A stretch of DNA of 64,000 bases from Lachnospiraceae bacterium oral taxon 500 (GTDB taxonomy: Bacteria > Bacillota > Clostridia > Lachnospirales > Vallitaleaceae): NCBI GenBank assembly GCA_002999035.1, contig CP027241.1:2990195-3054194 (forward strand), given 5' to 3'. Below, piece by piece: positions 11,983-18,524 of the stretch. Below the pieces are notes generated by a model, which was not told the DNA's origin, did no database searches, and saw only the letters and a program-made list of their open reading frames with translations. The position numbers and the translations under genes were made by a program. Every line of letters begins with the position of its first letter. Position 1 is the first letter of the stretch.

Positions 11983-12007
11983 TGCTCTACAAAGTGTCAA
12001 AGACGGG

Positions 12008-12156
12008 ATTATACTACGCATAGGCAAATAATACAACTAAAACCTCACTTTTCCTCCGGTTCAGACAAGAAAACAGTTATACTTGACAGGCCCCATCGGC
12101 CTATCCAGTATAACTGTCCGTTTACTTAATGCATACACTCGTAATTCGTTGAGATG
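12008..12156. repeat. 149-bp direct repeat, right copy (original locus)
   Basis: Partner of 9104-9252. It carries a second copy of the OLE promoter on the minus strand (TATAAT at 12013-12008, TTGTAT at 12036-12031, 17-base spacer), now pointing into the element's right end. It runs on without a break into the complete hairpin B at 12138-12171. Confidence 0.85.
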
Positions 12157-12171
12157 TCAACAAATTACGAG
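12076..12171. repeat. Bipartite palindromic repeat, most complete copy
   Basis: Hairpin A: AGTTATACTTGACAGGCC pairs with GGCCTATCCAGTATAACT with two mismatches. Hairpin B: CTCGTAATTCGTTGA (12138-12152) pairs with TCAACAAATTACGAG (12157-12171), 15 bp with one mismatch and loop GATG. It has the same two-hairpin plan as 3141-3252. Confidence 0.65.
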
Positions 12172-12239
12172 CGGCTTGTCTAAACTGAATCCGACACCCC
12201 ATGCTGAAGGGCTGCCGCTCTCTTCCTCCTTTCTGCTGA

Positions 12240-13829
12240 CTATTCTGCTGTTACCGTCATCACCGCCGTACCGTTTTTAATTGTACCGCCGGTTACTGCT
12301 CCGCTGCCCGTTTCAGAAAGCGTGCCGCCGGTATATACGGTATAACTGGTTCCGGTCTTTAACCGACCGGTGCTGATCAAAACCACTTGATAATTTTTCA
12401 CACCCGGGAAGGATGCTATCACGTTGCCGGCGCTGTCTGCTAAAGTCAACTGTTCGCCGGCGCTGCCGTTATGGTAAAATGCCACGCTGGACTGACTGCT
12501 GTTTTGACTGAAACCTTGGTACATGCCACTGCTGCCGGCTGCAATAAAAGTACCGCCGCTGATATCGGCCGTGCCATTGTAGTCAAGGCTGCCGTTGCCG
12601 TTGTTGGTCGGCCCGTAAATAACGGTCGTCCCACCGCTGACGGTAACATTGCCGTTGGAATCAAGCCCGTCGCCCTGAGCGTTGACAGTAATCACTCCGC
12701 CGGAAATATTAACCGCTACGCCTTCCTGAACCTGATCCATTCCGCCGCCGAATCCGCCGTCAGAAGAGGTTCCACCGGTCGCGTTAATGCCGTCATCGGA
12801 AGCATTGACATTGACTGTGCCGCCGCTGATATTGACAACCTTGGCTTCCAAGCCTTCCACGCTATTCGTAATGTCAATCACGGCACTGCCGGTAATATTC
12901 AAATCGGTTTCGGCATGAATCCCGTCGTCACCGCTGGTTAGGGTCAAACTGCCCGCCTGAATGGTAATACTGCCATTGCTGTGCAGGGTATCGTCAGCGG
13001 TATTTACCGTCATTGTTCCGCCGTTAATCAGTAAGTCCGTACCGGCTTTCACCCCTTTGCTGCTGGTGCTTTGCGTATTACTTTCACCTGCCGCTGTGTT
13101 GGTATCGGACTGCTGCCACTGGCCATTAAAACCTTGCTGACCCTGTGGTCCTTGCCCGTGCGGCGGCCTATGACCGTTTTGCTGCCCTTGATTCGGTCTA
13201 TTGGGTGGAGTCATTTGACCCGGCTGCGAAGCGGCGGCGCTGGTGCTGCCGCCGCCCGAAACAATCTCAAAAGTTCCGTCATTGATTTCAACTATGGTTT
13301 CCGCTTGAATCCCATCACCGCCGGCTGTAATCTTAAAGCTGCCGCCGTCAATCGAAACCCAGCCCTTTGTCGTGTCGCTTGTGTTGCTGGATTTGATTCC
13401 ATCGCCGCCGGCTGTAATCACAAAGCTGCCGTCTAAGATCGCAACCGAATCCTTACCGGTCAGTGCATCGTCCTGAGCTGATACCGTCAGCTGCCCGCCG
13501 GTAATGGTCAGTTCATCCTTCGATTTAATGCCGTCCTTGTACCGGCCATTAACCGTCAACGCACCGCCGCCGTTAATCGTCAAGTCGGTTTTGCTGTAAA
13601 TCGCCGCATCGGCCGCTGTTTCCGAAGTATCGGCATAGCTTTCGGCATCTGTCATCTGATTGACTGTTCCGTCAGCCAGTGTCAAAAATACCTTGTCAGC
13701 AGTTTTAATCTGCAAAACGCTGCCGGTTTGACTGGTAATATCCGCGCCATTTAAAACAATCTGCACTTTAGCCGTATCGGCCGCCTCAACAATGATTTGG
13801 CCATCGCTCCAGTTGCTACTTGTCAAGGA
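12240..13829 (-). pseudogene. Carbohydrate-binding domain protein, 5'-truncated (Cthe_2159/DUF4353-like)
   Basis: About 530 residues of a beta-helix protein rich in Gly, Thr, Asn and Ser, with many turns such as ITGGQLTV, INGGTMTVNTADDTL and ISGGTVNVNASDDGINA, typical of the polysaccharide-binding beta-helix group of cell-surface proteins in clostridia. A Gln/Pro-rich insert (about 215-265) breaks the helix. The usual signal peptide and N-terminal domain are missing: reading begins abruptly at NWSDGQIIVEAAD, right where tnpW ends. The frame can be opened by an ATG at 13847 that belongs to the tnpW side. Without a signal peptide it cannot reach the surface, so it is treated as a broken gene. 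Confidence 0.75.
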
Positions 13830-13833
13830 CTTT

Positions 13834-14019
13834 TTAATCAAAATCATCTTTTTTTTCGTTCGATTTTCTCCGAAATTCCCTCAGCATTATCCTTTTTAGT
13901 TTATCCTGCATAGTTTCACTGCTTTTATCATTAAAATGGACAATCACCTCATAACTGGTCTTTCCAATCTTCTTTGTTGTCTTTGCTCCTGTATTTTGTT
14001 CATTTCTTTTTTCTTGCAT
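13834..14019 (-). CDS. tnpW: TnpW-like transposon-encoded small protein
   Basis: A 61-residue protein beginning MQEKRNEQNTGAKTTKKIGK, then TSYEVIVHFNDKSSETMQDKL and a basic tail, the pattern of TnpW proteins of Tn4451-like and related mobilisable elements. AAAGGAG lies before the ATG at 14019. It is a cargo gene of unknown function. It directly abuts the broken carbohydrate-binding gene, marking the end of a transposon fragment. Confidence 0.72.
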   Translation of the reverse strand: MQEKRNEQNTGAKTTKKIGKTSYEVIVHFNDKSSETMQDKLKRIMLREFRRKSNEKKDDFD

Positions 14020-14112
14020 ATGCTCTCCTTTCATTGCAATAAAAAATGACGATTCGTGATTTTCTCCAATCGTCATTAGCTAATATCTATTCATTTCATT
14101 TCTTTTCTATTT

Positions 14113-14221
14113 TTAATTATCCGTATCTATTTCCTTAATCTTTTTCTCTATTTCTTCGATACTCGGCAAACTGCTCTTATATTCTGATTCAAGTAATTTA
14201 GTGATCTCATATTTGCTGATA
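14113..14221 (-). pseudogene. C-terminal fragment of an unknown mobile-element protein
   Basis: An open frame without a start reads SKYEITKLLESEYKSSLPSI, then EEIEKKIKEIDTDN and a stop. It is joined out of frame to the end of the truncated IS200 transposase. I do not recognise it. The AT-rich codons match the tnpW side. Confidence 0.35.
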
Positions 14222-14222
14222 C

Positions 14223-14444
14223 CTATACACTGTATTTTGGCGGAATCCTTACTAGCATATGTATGTGATCTACACAACACTCTGCTTCTACTATTTCTAC
14301 TCCTTTCCTCTCACATAATTCTCTCAATATTTTTCCTACATCTCTTTTTATCTTTCCATAGATAATTTGTCTCCTATATTTCGGTGCAAATACTATATGA
14401 TATTTGCATTCCCACCTCGTATGTGTTAAACTATTTTTATCCAT
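14223..14444 (-). pseudogene. tnpA: IS200-type transposase TnpA, C-terminally truncated
   Basis: Seventy-three residues: HTRWECKYHIVFAPKYRRQ, then ECCVDHIHMLVRIPPKYSV, i.e. the Y1-transposase fold with the HxH metal site (HIH) intact. The usual further half with the catalytic Tyr is missing; a stop follows at the junction with the 14113-14221 fragment. GGAGG sits before the ATG. It cannot be active. Confidence 0.85.
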
Positions 14445-14537
14445 TTGGATACCTCCTTTTTGATATCTTCATGCGGTTTGCAGACCTGCATTTATTATAT
14501 CACAGGAGGTTTTTTCTTGTAGCTAAAGCTTTTGTCT

Positions 14538-14562
14538 CCCCCAGCACAGCTGGGGGTTTTTT
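14538..14562 (+). terminator. IS200 left-end hairpin / terminator
   Basis: CCCCCAGC pairs with GCTGGGGG over a 3-base loop, followed by six Ts. IS200 elements carry such a hairpin upstream of tnpA, where it guards against outside transcription. Confidence 0.7.
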
Positions 14563-14574
14563 GTTGCTAAAGCA

Positions 14575-15477
14575 TACAATGAAAAAGGCCGGATCAGCGG
14601 CCTTCATCTCCTCTTTTTCAAACGGCAGTGGCAGCCCGATACGATTCGGATTGCGTTCGGTGACTATCAGCATAGCCTGTCGTCACTCTATGCTTTAATT
14701 CAAACTTTTTTGCTGGTCGGCGGTCTGGTACTGCTTGCCTTTTGGCGAATCAGTATCTTTTTGGCCAACATGGCACTGGCTCCGGTCGAAGCCGCCTGGA
14801 ACAAGCAACGCCAGTTTTTGGCTGATGCTTCGCATGAACTGAAAACGCCGCTGACGGTTATTCTGACCAATTTAGGAATTTTGGCCGCCAATCCCCAAAA
14901 AACCATAGCCGAGCAAAACCGATGGATTGAAAACAGCAGCGCCGAAGCACTGCGGATGAAAGAGCTGGTCGAGCAAATGCTGTTTCTGGCCAAATCCGAT
15001 ACCAGCCAGCTGTCGGTAGTTAAAGAAAGTGTTGATTTCAGCGATTTGGTCATGGGCAGCATCCTGACTATGGAATCGCTGGCTTTTGAGCGCGATCTCC
15101 GCTTTCAGGATGAGATTGCCGCCGATATCCGGTTGACCGGCAATGCCGCTCAGCTGACGCAGTTGCTTCACATTTTACTGGATAATGCCTGCAAATATTC
15201 TTTTCCCGGCAGCACCATTGGGGTCAAGCTATGGACAGAAAAAAAGTCGGCTCGGCTGTCCGTTGTCAGCCACGGCACTGTCATTGCCGCATCCGATTTG
15301 CCCAAATTATTTGACCGCTTTTACCGGGCGGACAGCTCCCGCGTCCGCGAAACCGGCGGCTACGGGCTGGGGCTGGCCATCGCTGCCAGTATCGCTGCCG
15401 CTCATCACGGCCAAATCAGTGCTGCCAGCAGTGCCGAAACCGGCACGATGTTTACGGTTATTCTGCCGATGGAGTGA
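14575..15477 (+). pseudogene. Sensor histidine kinase, 5'-truncated
   Basis: The frame opens without a start at the IS200 edge and reads through a membrane segment (LLVGGLVLLAFWRISIF), then the H box FLADASHELKTPLTV, the N box LLDNACKYS, an F box (LFDRFYRADSS) and the G box GGYGLGLAIA. The sensor part and first membrane helix are lost. A TTG within the frame (14710) could start a 255-residue C-terminal kinase, but there is no good ribosome site. The 3' end (15329-15477) is duplicated at 17933-18080. In clostridia such kinases are often near the carbohydrate-binding protein seen at 12.2-13.8 kb, so both may be ends of one lost operon. Confidence 0.75.
15329..15477 (+). repeat. Direct repeat of the kinase 3' end, left copy
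   Basis: The last 149 bases of the kinase recur at 17933-18080 with about 90 % identity and one 1-base gap. The pair encloses the regulator-peptide-transporter cassette. Confidence 0.8.
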
Positions 15478-16396
15478 TATAGCCCAGTGGTGCTAACTGA
15501 TAGGTATTTCTTAGATTTTGATTAACATTTTTATCCTTAAAGTGGCTGTTTTCTCCTAAAAAGTCATTTAGCTGCAAAAACAGGTTCATATACAGCAGCG
15601 CTTCCTCTTTTCGCCCTAAGCAGTACAGACTGCGCCCCTTAATATTGCTCAGCCCCGCCACTTGATAAAGGATATTGTTTTCCTGACAAAGCCGCAGTCC
15701 CTGGTCGGCTACCTGCAAAGCTTTTTTATATTCCTGCCGGTAAAAATAAAGCCGGCTTAAATTATAGAAAAAGTTTAAGTACGCATTATCTTTGACTTCA
15801 AAATAGCAGCGGTCAAGTATCGTAATTGCTTTAAGCAGCCATTCCTCAGCAATGTCATAGCGTTCGGCCTGCAAATGAACAAAAATTGCCGCATTTAAGA
15901 TGCGCAGCTCAAACGGCTTTAAATTAGCCTGCCAAATATCGCTGACCTTGGTAAAGGGATGTGTCAGAGCAATCAGGTTCAAAAAATCCTCCGCCGAAAA
16001 AGCCTCCGCTGGCTGGCAATAACCAGCTGCTATGCCAAAATACCAATTGATTCTTTGGCGCAAAAAAACAAAAGACCGGACAAGCTCATCATCTTTTAAG
16101 ATTTTGCTTTGCCGGTACATTTCCTGATATCGTTCTTCGCTGTAATACTGTTCTAATTCATCAACTCTCTTTTTCCAAAGAAACGGCTCCTCTAACTCAG
16201 CATAAGGAAAGTAATCCAACAGGTTCTCGCCTAAGCGAAAGGACAACTCATAAATCAAATAAGTACTGGCTTCCGAAGTGTTATTTTCAATTCTGGACAA
16301 CTGTTTCAGCGAACAAATCCCCTCAGCCAGTTCTTTTTGGCTAAGTCCTTTTTTCTTCCGCAATTCCCTGATGATTGTGCCCAACGAAACACTCAT
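15458..16396 (-). CDS. XRE-type regulator with TPR domain (RNPP/Rgg-like peptide receptor)
   Basis: A 312-residue protein. The N-terminal HTH (about 6-60: IIRELRKKKGLSQKELAEGI, SLKQLSRIENN) is followed by about 240 residues of helical repeats, e.g. AEEWLLKAITILDRCYF, YKKALQVADQGLRLCQENN and GRKEEALLYMNLFLQLN. This HTH plus TPR layout and length match PlcR, PrgX, NprR and Rgg, cytoplasmic receptors of imported peptide pheromones. AAAGGAG precedes the ATG. It is divergent from a 34-codon secreted-peptide gene and the MFS gene, with one 14-bp palindrome between the two promoters. Its last codons run into the kinase repeat, so the natural C-terminus may be altered. The peptide-binding role is inferred. 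Confidence 0.85.
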   Translation of the reverse strand: MSVSLGTIIRELRKKKGLSQKELAEGICSLKQLSRIENNTSEASTYLIYELSFRLGENLLDYFPYAELEEPFLWKKRVDELEQYYSEERYQEMYRQSKILKDDELVRSFVFLRQRINWYFGIAAGYCQPAEAFSAEDFLNLIALTHPFTKVSDIWQANLKPFELRILNAAIFVHLQAERYDIAEEWLLKAITILDRCYFEVKDNAYLNFFYNLSRLYFYRQEYKKALQVADQGLRLCQENNILYQVAGLSNIKGRSLYCLGRKEEALLYMNLFLQLNDFLGENSHFKDKNVNQNLRNTYQLAPLGYITPSAE

Positions 16397-16478
16397 TTGG
16401 CTCCTTTCCGCTCTATGGCTTTCTAAATACTTAATTATTTATTGGTTTTTTATTGTCTGTATCATACTTTTCCGGTTT

Positions 16479-16529
16479 TGTCAAGGGACAGATGTGTCCG
16501 TTGAAAAAGAAAAGAAAGGCTGGTATATT
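16479..16529. promoter_or_regulatory. Divergent promoters with a central palindrome (candidate regulator operator)
   Basis: Rightward promoter: TTGAAA (16501-16506), 17 bases, TATATT (16524-16529). Leftward promoter: TTGACA (16484-16479) with a weak -10 TACAGA 17 bases on. The palindrome GGACA-GATG-TGTCC (16486-16499) fills the space between the two -35 boxes, an ideal place for one dimer to control both directions. Confidence 0.6.
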
Positions 16530-16552
16530 AACGTCAAGAAACAAAACGTTAA
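16528..16552 (+). promoter_or_regulatory. Inverted repeat at the peptide-gene start site
   Basis: TTAACGT (16528-16534) and ACGTTAA (16546-16552) flank the predicted transcription start and end just before the AAAGGAG ribosome site. It could be a second protein site or a weak leader hairpin. Confidence 0.4.
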
Positions 16553-16570
16553 ACAAAGGAGTATTAAAAA

Positions 16571-16675
16571 TTGAAACAAAAACTAATTACCTTCTTGCTT
16601 TGCTTGATGACACTTACGCAGATATTTGCTTTTTCTGTTAAAAATGCACTCTTATTAAAAAATTTATGGTATTAA
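16571..16675 (+). CDS. 34-residue secreted peptide, candidate quorum-sensing pro-pheromone
   Basis: A short gene with TTG start and AAAGGAG ten bases upstream. It encodes a classic export signal: basic MKQK, the hydrophobic core LITFLLCLMTLTQIFAF, then a 13-residue tail SVKNALLLKNLWY. Small size, signal peptide and a hydrophobic/aromatic C-terminus are hallmarks of PapR, SHP and cCF10-type pheromone precursors. It lies between a divergent XRE-TPR regulator and an MFS transporter gene and has its own promoter beside the shared palindrome. The mature signal is probably the last 5-10 residues (ending KNLWY). Coding status is inferred from the ribosome site, signal-peptide pattern and context. 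Confidence 0.7.
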   Translation: MKQKLITFLLCLMTLTQIFAFSVKNALLLKNLWY

Positions 16676-16734
16676 AGAATTAACCTTACAGAAACAATTC
16701 ATTCAGCACACCACCGCCTTCAGAAAGGAATCCG

Positions 16735-17901
16735 ATGATGAACGCTAATGCTAAAAAACTATTATTCGGCCGCTCTATCTCTACCTTTGGCGATAATTTA
16801 TACCAATTGGCTGTAGTTTGGTATGTTTACGCCGCCACACAAAATGCTTTTTATACCGGTCTGGTAACCGCTATGACCATGCTGCCCAAAGCTCTGTCCT
16901 TTTTGGTCGGACCGTTGGTCGATCACGGCAATAAAAAGAAAATCCTCGTATCGGCGCAGCTGATTCAAGCCCTCTTGATTCTGCTTGTGCCACTGGCCTT
17001 TTATTTTAACCGGGCAATTCTGCCGACAATTTTTGTAACTATCCTTTTGGTTTCTTTCATTGAAAACTATGAAAGAACGGCAGAATTTGCCGTTATTCCG
17101 CATATTGTGCCGGAAAAAGGCTTAATTAAATACAATTCCCTGTCCGCGTCCATCAGCCGAATTGTGGAAGTGGCCGTCAGCGCTGCCTTTTCCCTGATTA
17201 TTGCTCATATCAGCGTCAGCCAGATTTACTTAATCAACGGCCTGACCTATCTCTTGGCCTTTGTCTGCTTTTTGGGCATTCAGTCGGCGGAAACCGTCAA
17301 GGCCGAAAAACTGAACTTCAGCCAATACAAAATCAGCTTTAAAGAAGGAATTGCCGCCTTTTTTTCCTCAGAGGCCGTTTCCATCTGTCTGCCGATCATG
17401 CTGTTAAACTTCACCATGGGCATTGTTTCCGCTATTTTGCCGGCTTACGCGGCAGCGCTGGGCAGCATTGATTATTTCGGTTATATCCGGCTGGCCATGA
17501 GTATCGGCCTTATTCTTGGCACTACCCTGGCCATGAAGTTGACAAACCTGTCCTATCTATTTAAACTGCGGGTTTTTCCGCTGATTACCTGCGTCTTATG
17601 GATAGCGGCGGTATTAATCAATCAGCTTTATTTTTCTCTGCCGCTTCTTAGTTTGGCCTTTATTCCTTACGGCGTGTTAACCATTACCTTGATTACGCAA
17701 ATTCAAAGCTCTCTGCCGGCTGCCCTGTTAGGCCGGATTGTTACGATTATCGACAGTGTTTTAGTGGCCACCATGCCAGTCGGCGCTATCTTGGGCGGCC
17801 TGTTAGCCGAATCCGTTCCGCCAGCTTACGCCATGATTGCCTGGGGCATTAGTATTTTAACGCTGTCAGTCATGACTTTAAAACGACCCAAAAAAGCCTA
17901 A
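16735..17901 (+). CDS. MFS transporter, peptide-cassette partner
   Basis: A 388-residue major facilitator with about 11-12 membrane helices, starting FGRSISTFGDNLYQLAVVWY, with the conserved loop 2-3 charge motif near DHGNKKK (about 63-69). It resembles the MFS_3 / macrolide-efflux-like group. GAAAGGAA lies seven bases before ATG at 16735; a second ATG follows at once. It is 59 bases downstream of the pheromone-like gene with no terminator seen, so probably co-transcribed and under the same regulator. It could export the peptide's target compound, a toxic metabolite or the peptide itself; the last is unproven. No truncation. Confidence 0.85.
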   Translation: MMNANAKKLLFGRSISTFGDNLYQLAVVWYVYAATQNAFYTGLVTAMTMLPKALSFLVGPLVDHGNKKKILVSAQLIQALLILLVPLAFYFNRAILPTIFVTILLVSFIENYERTAEFAVIPHIVPEKGLIKYNSLSASISRIVEVAVSAAFSLIIAHISVSQIYLINGLTYLLAFVCFLGIQSAETVKAEKLNFSQYKISFKEGIAAFFSSEAVSICLPIMLLNFTMGIVSAILPAYAAALGSIDYFGYIRLAMSIGLILGTTLAMKLTNLSYLFKLRVFPLITCVLWIAAVLINQLYFSLPLLSLAFIPYGVLTITLITQIQSSLPAALLGRIVTIIDSVLVATMPVGAILGGLLAESVPPAYAMIAWGISILTLSVMTLKRPKKA

Positions 17902-17932
17902 ACATCTGGCGCCAGCGACACCGTGTCAAAAG

Positions 17933-18080
17933 CGGACAACTCCGCGTCCGCGAAACCGGCGGCTACGGGCTGGAGCTGGCCATCGCTGCCAGTATTGCTG
18001 CCGCTCATCACGGCCAAATCAGCGCTGCTAGCAGTGCCGAAACCGGCGCGGTTTTTACGGTCGCGCTGCCGATGGAATAA
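17933..18080 (+). pseudogene. Duplicated 3' end of the histidine kinase
   Basis: Reads RVRETGGYGLELAIAASIAA to the stop GFTVALPME-like end, matching the end of the 14575-15477 kinase. The G-box Gly is changed to Glu (GLELA) and the upstream part is absent. It stops four bases before the convergent YuiD-type gene, so this is probably the original kinase end and the cassette was inserted between copies. Right copy of the direct repeat with 15329-15477. Confidence 0.8.
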
Positions 18081-18083
18081 AGT

Positions 18084-18524
18084 CTAATACCACAGCCCAA
18101 TCAAAATCCCCAGCAGCATGCCGACAAAAACTTCTAAGTAAGTATGGCCGAGCAGCTCCTTTAGTTCTTTTTCAATTTGAAAATTGGAACGCCCCAGCTG
18201 CTCGACAATCTGCTTAATCACCTTGGCCTGCTGCCCGGCTGCCATCCGGACATTGGCGGCATCGTACATGGTAATAAAAGAAATCACCATACCCAGTCCA
18301 AAGACCGGATCGCTGAAGCCCGACAGCTTACCGAGCTGAACCGTGGCCGCCACAATCGAAGCCGTATGCGAGCTGGGCATTCCGCCCGACCCCATGATCC
18401 GCTCCGGATCAAACTTTTTGTAACGGATGCCGGTTGTCAAAATCTTAAAACCCTGCGCCACGAACCAGCCAATCAGCGCCACCACAAAAGGGCGATTGTT
18501 AAATATTTCTACTATATATTTCAT
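18084..18524 (-). CDS. Divergent PAP2 family membrane protein (YuiD-like, DUF212)
   Basis: A 146-residue protein with membrane helices at about 10-30, 70-90 and 125-144, and the motif MGSGGMPSSHTASIVA (about 45-60), the phosphatase-like PSSH core of DUF212. The first ATG overlaps the xseB stop (ATGA), so it is coupled to xseB. It may act on a lipid pyrophosphate, in keeping with the isoprenoid genes usually found here (ispA, dxs), but the activity of this family is not settled. Confidence 0.88.
   Translation of the reverse strand: MKYIVEIFNNRPFVVALIGWFVAQGFKILTTGIRYKKFDPERIMGSGGMPSSHTASIVAATVQLGKLSGFSDPVFGLGMVISFITMYDAANVRMAAGQQAKVIKQIVEQLGRSNFQIEKELKELLGHTYLEVFVGMLLGILIGLWY

Follow-up and report, generated by a model that had tools for sequence, protein, structure and literature searches.

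A probable peptide-signalling cassette with a putative membrane pump as its output in the genome of Lachnospiraceae bacterium oral taxon 500

Do three neighbouring genes of Lachnospiraceae bacterium oral taxon 500 form a circuit for communication by a secreted peptide? The question is raised by a locus at positions 15458-17901 of the window, the 64,000-nucleotide stretch of DNA that was analysed (G000:C1:2990195-3054194), which is part of a 3.2-Mb single-contig genome. A first-pass annotation had described the locus as a compact quorum-sensing cassette composed of a helix-turn-helix (HTH) receptor with tetratricopeptide repeats (TPRs), a short divergent open reading frame (ORF), and a transporter of the major facilitator superfamily (MFS). 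Inspection of the sequence and its ORFs confirms all three genes in their places. The observation itself is confirmed, and the interpretation first given to it is, as a whole, partly supported. The cluster probably lets cells sense a small peptide that they have released themselves and turn on a membrane pump. The three genes are:

15458..16396, minus strand: RRNPP-type receptor and transcription regulator of 312 amino acids, with an XRE HTH (about residues 9-52) and TPRs, identified by domain matches, PlcR homology, and a conserved asparagine
16571..16675, plus strand: candidate signalling propeptide of 34 amino acids with a TTG start and the Shine-Dalgarno (SD) sequence AAAGGAG, identified as an ORF, by comparison with shuffled sequences, and by counterparts at L004:1164-1325 and L068:4876-5031
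16735..17901, plus strand: MFS transporter (MFS_1/MFS_3) of 388 amino acids, identified by Pfam and by an orthologue with 67% identity in genome G021

The receptor is, on the evidence of its domains and homologues, a member of the RRNPP type, in agreement with the RNPP/Rgg size given in the first-pass annotation. In a Pfam scan, both HTH_3 (3.7e-9) and TPR_2 (7.7e-8) score over the cut-off, whereas the Pfam and NCBIfam lists, taken up to E = 1, include no Rgg family. When the receptor is compared as a single sequence with solved structures, the top match is PlcR (4.4e-5, residues 4-235). A profile built from 30 receptors matches PlcR with 3.6e-35 (positions 1-295), ComR (6hu8) with 1.6e-11 (positions 4-289), and Rgg (4yv6/4yv9) with 1.5e-14 over positions 1-110 only, among the best 60 of 129 matches; the identity of 4yv9 as Rgg is taken from an excerpt of PMC9765709. 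Designed TPR proteins and kinesin light chains also match the profile, via its repeat part. Asn212 of the receptor is kept in 25 and Asn168 in 22 of the 30 rows of receptor alignment A4. Asn212 aligns with PlcR Asn201, which we take to be a peptide contact that holds the peptide backbone. In ComR, N208 holds the peptide backbone, as stated in an excerpt of PMC5131891.

The TTG start, AAAGGAG sequence, and signal-peptide pattern of the small ORF are as first described. The AAAGGAG ends 9 nt before the TTG, and a possible signal-peptidase site follows Ala20; the cleavage site was placed by eye, and the export signal was scored on hydrophobicity and charge, without a signal-peptide program. A strict rule for such ORFs demands 25-80 amino acids, an SD sequence, a basic start, and a hydrophobic core. 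When the 338-bp gap is shuffled, an ORF obeying it occurs on the plus strand in one of 2000 cases, and with both strands counted in nine of 2000. Without the SD rule, a comparable ORF is found in 125 of 1000 shuffles; therefore, the ORF is beyond chance only when its SD sequence is counted. The counterpart in G021 is matched in none of 1000 shuffles. That the ORF with its SD sequence is not a product of chance, and is of a secreted type, is supported.

The third gene, which has the direction of the small ORF as had been reported, matches MFS_1 (4.5e-13) and MFS_3 (1.5e-8). The transporter also resembles the exporter models TIGR00900, EntS, and Mef(A), in every case below the cut-off. The scan lists no terminator-like site between the small ORF and the MFS gene, and the two are probably co-transcribed.

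The gap between the receptor gene and the small ORF contains two divergent promoters and a candidate operator:

16484-16479, minus strand: perfect -35 box TTGACA of the receptor gene, seen in the sequence and kept in G021; its -10 box is weak
16501..16529, plus strand: promoter of the small ORF and MFS gene, TTGAAA-17-TATATT, 10/12, with TG before the second box, found by the scan and kept in G021
16481..16504, no strand: candidate operator, an imperfect 24-bp dyad TCAAGGGACAGATGTGTCCGTTGA that contains the palindrome at 16486-16499 and is partially conserved in G021

The receptor-side promoter is absent from the promoter-scan list. For the small-ORF promoter, the scan gives three sites of that match level in 2751 bases, compared with 3.7 in shuffles, so that the match alone proves little; both of its boxes and the 17-bp spacing are kept in G021. 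The palindrome GGACA-GATG-TGTCC lies exactly between the two -35 boxes, one base off each, where the first-pass annotation had placed it. Shuffles of the 50-bp stretch contain a 5-4-5 palindrome in 91 of 2000 cases and any palindrome with 5-bp arms in 485 of 2000, and the palindrome by itself is therefore weak. The pattern GGACANNNNTGTCC occurs at one place in the genome and its reversed control at two; the single occurrence speaks for a local switch over a regulon, not for significance. In G021, the outer TCAA/TTGA and the inner CA.AT.TG of the dyad are kept, and the block TTTGTCAAG...CA.ATGTGTCCGTTGAAA is common to both genomes. The GGACA arm is replaced by CCCCA, and hence the exact palindrome is not what has been conserved. 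The dyad pattern shared by the window and G021, searched with up to two mismatches in three genomes, is present at both source places and at one further place in G021 (two mismatches); the reversed control is matched twice in G000, the genome of the window, once forward and once in reverse. No PlcR box is present in the gap within one mismatch, and the two found elsewhere in the window correspond to chance level. The centre of the candidate operator is near -43 of the small-ORF promoter, if transcription starts about 7 bp after the -10 box, which suggests that the receptor is an activator.

A search for the same three-gene order, proposed at the outset, identified it in one other genome, G021, which belongs to the same genus. 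The order there is MFS gene, small ORF, and receptor gene, as in the window. The MFS proteins are 67% identical, and the receptors 59% over 239 residues. The G021 small ORF (L004:1164-1325) encodes 53 amino acids, has the SD sequence AGGAG, starts MKKRIITLIIILSILLYAIATPIK..., and continues past an AIA site into a 33-residue, mostly hydrophilic tail. Receptor matches are present in 12 of the 22 genomes of the taxonomic family at 0.001, with only that of G021 being close, and in 25 of the 392 genomes of the order at 1e-8. The MFS search at 1e-25 identified four of the 392 genomes: G000, G021, and two with 27-28% identity. The MFS gene travels together with the receptor gene and small ORF in the single further genome found to have its orthologue. 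In G035, from another family, a receptor with 31% identity has a divergent ORF of 46 to 51 amino acids (MRKNLVALVMVLMMITTLWNPIK...) located 92 bp away at L068:4876-5031, with no adjoining MFS gene. A divergent small ORF with a hydrophobic start therefore accompanies the receptor of the window as well as the two closest receptors found. The three small ORFs resemble one another in this start and in a stretch [PS][IV]K, and none of 5000 full shuffles equals the ungapped N-terminal match between the window and G021 ORFs.

From this anatomy, we consider it reasonably likely that the locus is an RRNPP-type peptide-signalling cassette with the MFS pump as its output. The small ORF would encode a propeptide of the Sec type. 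Signal peptidase would cleave it, probably after Ala20, to give FSVKNALLLKNLWY, and more trimming may follow. An oligopeptide permease would re-import a C-terminal piece; the genome encodes four SBP_bac_5 matches, all over the cut-off, that are oligopeptide-binding candidates and might serve the cassette peptide. The re-imported peptide would bind in the TPR groove of the HTH receptor. Positioned on the dyad between both -35 boxes, the receptor could switch the propeptide-MFS operon, resulting in autoinduction, and probably its own gene too. The output would be the MFS pump, most likely exporting a small molecule. The least secure parts of this proposal are the identity of the mature peptide, whether regulation is positive or negative, and the substrate of the pump.

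Several results weigh against the peptide-signalling cassette. The RNPP_C match of the receptor (2.7e-5) reaches 24.2 bits, below the Pfam cut-off of 26.5; of seven relatives scanned, only that of G021 has RNPP_C listed, also below the cut-off (23.9 bits), and the other six have none. The AlphaFold2 model of the receptor, with a pLDDT of 55.6, is too poor for use. In the draft genome G021, the receptor frame is interrupted near residue 239, and this receptor entered alignments A2 and A4 as its first 239 codons only. A DNA search with the gap as the query gives no G021 match at E 0.001, and within the 392 genomes all three genes are found together in only one other. The small ORF of G035 has a poor SD sequence, fails the strict rule, and without the SD rule is equalled in 175 of 1000 shuffles; a second G035 receptor has no such small ORF adjoining it. 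Under the strict rule, a divergent ORF is present beside only two of 31 receptor genes, those of the window and G021. When the shuffling is done region by region, the N-terminal match between the window and G021 ORFs is reached in 48 of 5000 trials. The three small ORFs have tails that cannot be aligned with one another, and that of the window, ...LLLKNLWY, has no counterpart in G021 or G035. Because the tails differ, the active end LWY suggested at first is a guess. The window tail is the shortest of the three and, unlike the other two, is without acidic or Gly/Pro-rich residues, for which reason it could be decayed.

The same features allow other explanations of the small ORF. Its 34 residues form mostly one hydrophobic span with a short, non-acidic tail, in line with the pump gene and with no terminator listed between them, as would be expected of a microprotein that crosses the membrane once, stays there, and modulates the MFS pump; the receptor would then be an ordinary HTH-TPR regulator of another signal. 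However, the G035 receptor has a similar small ORF with no MFS gene adjoining, the G021 ORF carries its long hydrophilic tail, and in the wider set 11 of 30 receptors have a convergent signal-peptide ORF; a microprotein is unlikely. A chance origin of the ORF, which would reduce the locus to a regulator beside a pump, could account for the unconserved tail, the TTG start, and the frequency of such ORFs in shuffles when the SD rule is dropped. The shuffles under the SD rule render this origin very unlikely, as do the positions of the window and G021 ORFs between the same two genes.

Two further explanations start from the pump. Divergent pairs of a regulator and a pump are common, and the receptor might be a classical efflux regulator that binds the small-molecule substrate of the pump, with the small ORF being incidental. 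The likeness of the MFS protein to exporters and a distant MFS gene divergent from an HTH gene in L031 would agree with this, whereas the RRNPP type of the receptor and the recurrence of a beyond-chance ORF in the same place in G021 do not, which leaves an efflux regulator quite unlikely. Leader peptides control mef genes, and the small ORF, which precedes by 59 bp the gene of an MFS protein weakly similar to Mef(A), could control the expression of that gene by ribosome stalling or attenuation. However, the leader RNA of the window has a poorer fold than its shuffles (z +1.72), 194 of 200 of which are at least as stable, that of G021 is unremarkable (z -1.04, 29 of 200), there is no Rfam match, and the similar ORF of G035 has no pump behind it. 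A leader RNA or attenuator was rejected in the absence of a stable fold and Rfam family, and a leader peptide is highly improbable. The cassette with the MFS pump as its output remains the preferred reading.

The survey of small ORFs covered 400-bp stretches beside the 31 receptor genes. In the convergent position, a signal-peptide ORF is present at the 11 of 30 receptors mentioned above, of which those in L115 and L020 are doubtful and resemble parts of other ORFs; downstream on the same strand there are none in 30, and control stretches of the same loci contain three in 310. These counts indicate that about one-third of the receptors have a convergent peptide-like ORF, and that the small branch of the window has it on the opposite side. 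The loci were drawn from 43 receptor matches listed in the order, of which 25 places were taken with wide flanks, and from a further list of nine, of which eight places were taken. The survey excluded L002, L003, and L024, whose matches are short or HTH-only; L114 and L116, where tblastn gave a partial match or none; and the second receptor of both L078 and L086. The receptor frames of L020 and L070 are both broken, and the ends of these genes were therefore placed manually. A scan of genome contigs with the receptor gave two relatives, both HTH-only.

Convergent signal-peptide ORFs of 46-60 amino acids directly follow HTH-TPR genes in L069, L070, L073, L075, L078, L079, L081, L085, and L087. 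They are candidate pheromone pairs, and several of the ORFs have acidic or Pro/Gly-rich tails. In L112:949-3384, a 452-aa ORF comes after the receptor gene on the same strand and by eye resembles a MATE pump. In L031:1498-4152 (G018), the HTH gene divergent from the distant MFS gene (24%) has an open frame that extends over at least 414 codons, and a 36-aa ORF is located in the gap between them; L032 (G017) has the same HTH match as L031. If the proposed function of the cassette is correct, a small exchangeable cassette places a membrane pump under the control of peptide signalling in this clostridial group. The related receptors, many of which have a signal-peptide ORF in the convergent or divergent position, provide candidate receptor-peptide pairs for tests of peptide-receptor co-change.

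The cassette is flanked by copies of a 135-bp direct repeat:

15339..15473, plus strand: left copy, which is the 3' end of a histidine kinase gene
17942..18076, plus strand: right copy, 92% identical, an apparent remnant

The adjoining stretch 13834-15477 contains a TnpW gene, a fragment of an IS200-like transposase, and the gene of a histidine kinase that appears to have lost its N-terminal part, and has no blastn match in the corresponding region of G020 (L124). In G020, an FtsJ/S4-type (tlyA-like) gene and the counterpart of 18084-18524 are about 1.6 kb apart and enclose one ORF of at least 100 amino acids, with a length of 187. Window positions 12000-18085 have no blastn match in that region; G020 has no receptor match, and its MFS match is only 24% identical. 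In G021, the cassette is at a different chromosomal site, between genes that are presumably rarA-like and hflX-like. The three genes appear to have moved together, since G020 is without them and G021 has them at another site. It is quite improbable that they form a self-contained mobile send-pump-receive unit, in which the MFS protein would export, or protect from, the unit's own peptide and the parts would travel together with the tail free to change at each transfer. A phage or plasmid origin was rejected, as full-length plasmid and phage matches to the receptor are only 23-27% identical. Two Streptococcus plasmids match the receptor with 54% over 52 residues, and plasmid MFS matches reach at most 32% among the matches listed. 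Eleven viral-contig loci encode short repressors, CI/LexA-like by eye, and the viral scan with the G035 receptor found none.

The link of an MFS pump to a receptor-peptide pair of this kind in a clostridium was at first considered new. For RRNPP pairs in general there is a precedent, as the excerpted table of PMC7564271 gives Rgg-SHP loci of Streptococcus thermophilus that have MFS genes, such as shp273-rgg7530-STER_1531 of strain LMD-9 with its divergent shp. In searches of the open-access literature, this paper is the only one to combine RRNPP and MFS transporter among the matches listed, and no paper combining RRNPP, MFS, and efflux was found. The term MFS is absent from the main texts of PMC10075063, PMC12700828, PMC7376267, PMC7206700, PMC9765709, and PMC12445099. 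A clostridial RRNPP-MFS link was not found in the open-access papers searched.

PlcR-PapR of the Bacillus cereus group has a secreted propeptide, as is proposed for the cassette, and the layout of the cassette, with its divergent propeptide gene, is the Rgg-SHP-like one among the known layouts. PlcR shares the HTH and TPR architecture, with the profile match over positions 1-295, the single-sequence match over 4-235, and the aligned Asn212/Asn201. In contrast to the small ORF of the cassette, pheromone genes of the PlcR type are located directly downstream of the receptor gene, according to an excerpt of PMC9765709; of the two layout precedents originally cited, Rgg-SHP stands and PlcR-PapR does not. 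The gap of the cassette also differs in having no match to the PlcR box, and its operator pattern is confined to one genomic site. QsrR and QssR of Clostridium acetobutylicum and C. saccharoperbutylacetonicum are clostridial RRNPP receptors with propeptide genes, as described in excerpts; the likeness is by description, not by sequence, and their main texts contain neither 'MFS' nor 'major facilitator'. The Rgg-SHP systems of streptococci resemble the cassette in the divergence of a short propeptide gene and the receptor gene, in a short hydrophobic tail, and, at loci such as shp273-rgg7530-STER_1531, in the presence of an MFS gene. They differ in that the cassette receptor has Pfam-recognised TPRs and no Rgg family listed, and its small ORF has a signal-peptide-like start, whereas SHP is exported by PptAB (PMC7564271, excerpt). 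The MFS gene follows rgg on the strand of rgg in the excerpted locus, and follows the propeptide gene in the cassette, which looks like a further branch of these already known peptide-signalling systems.

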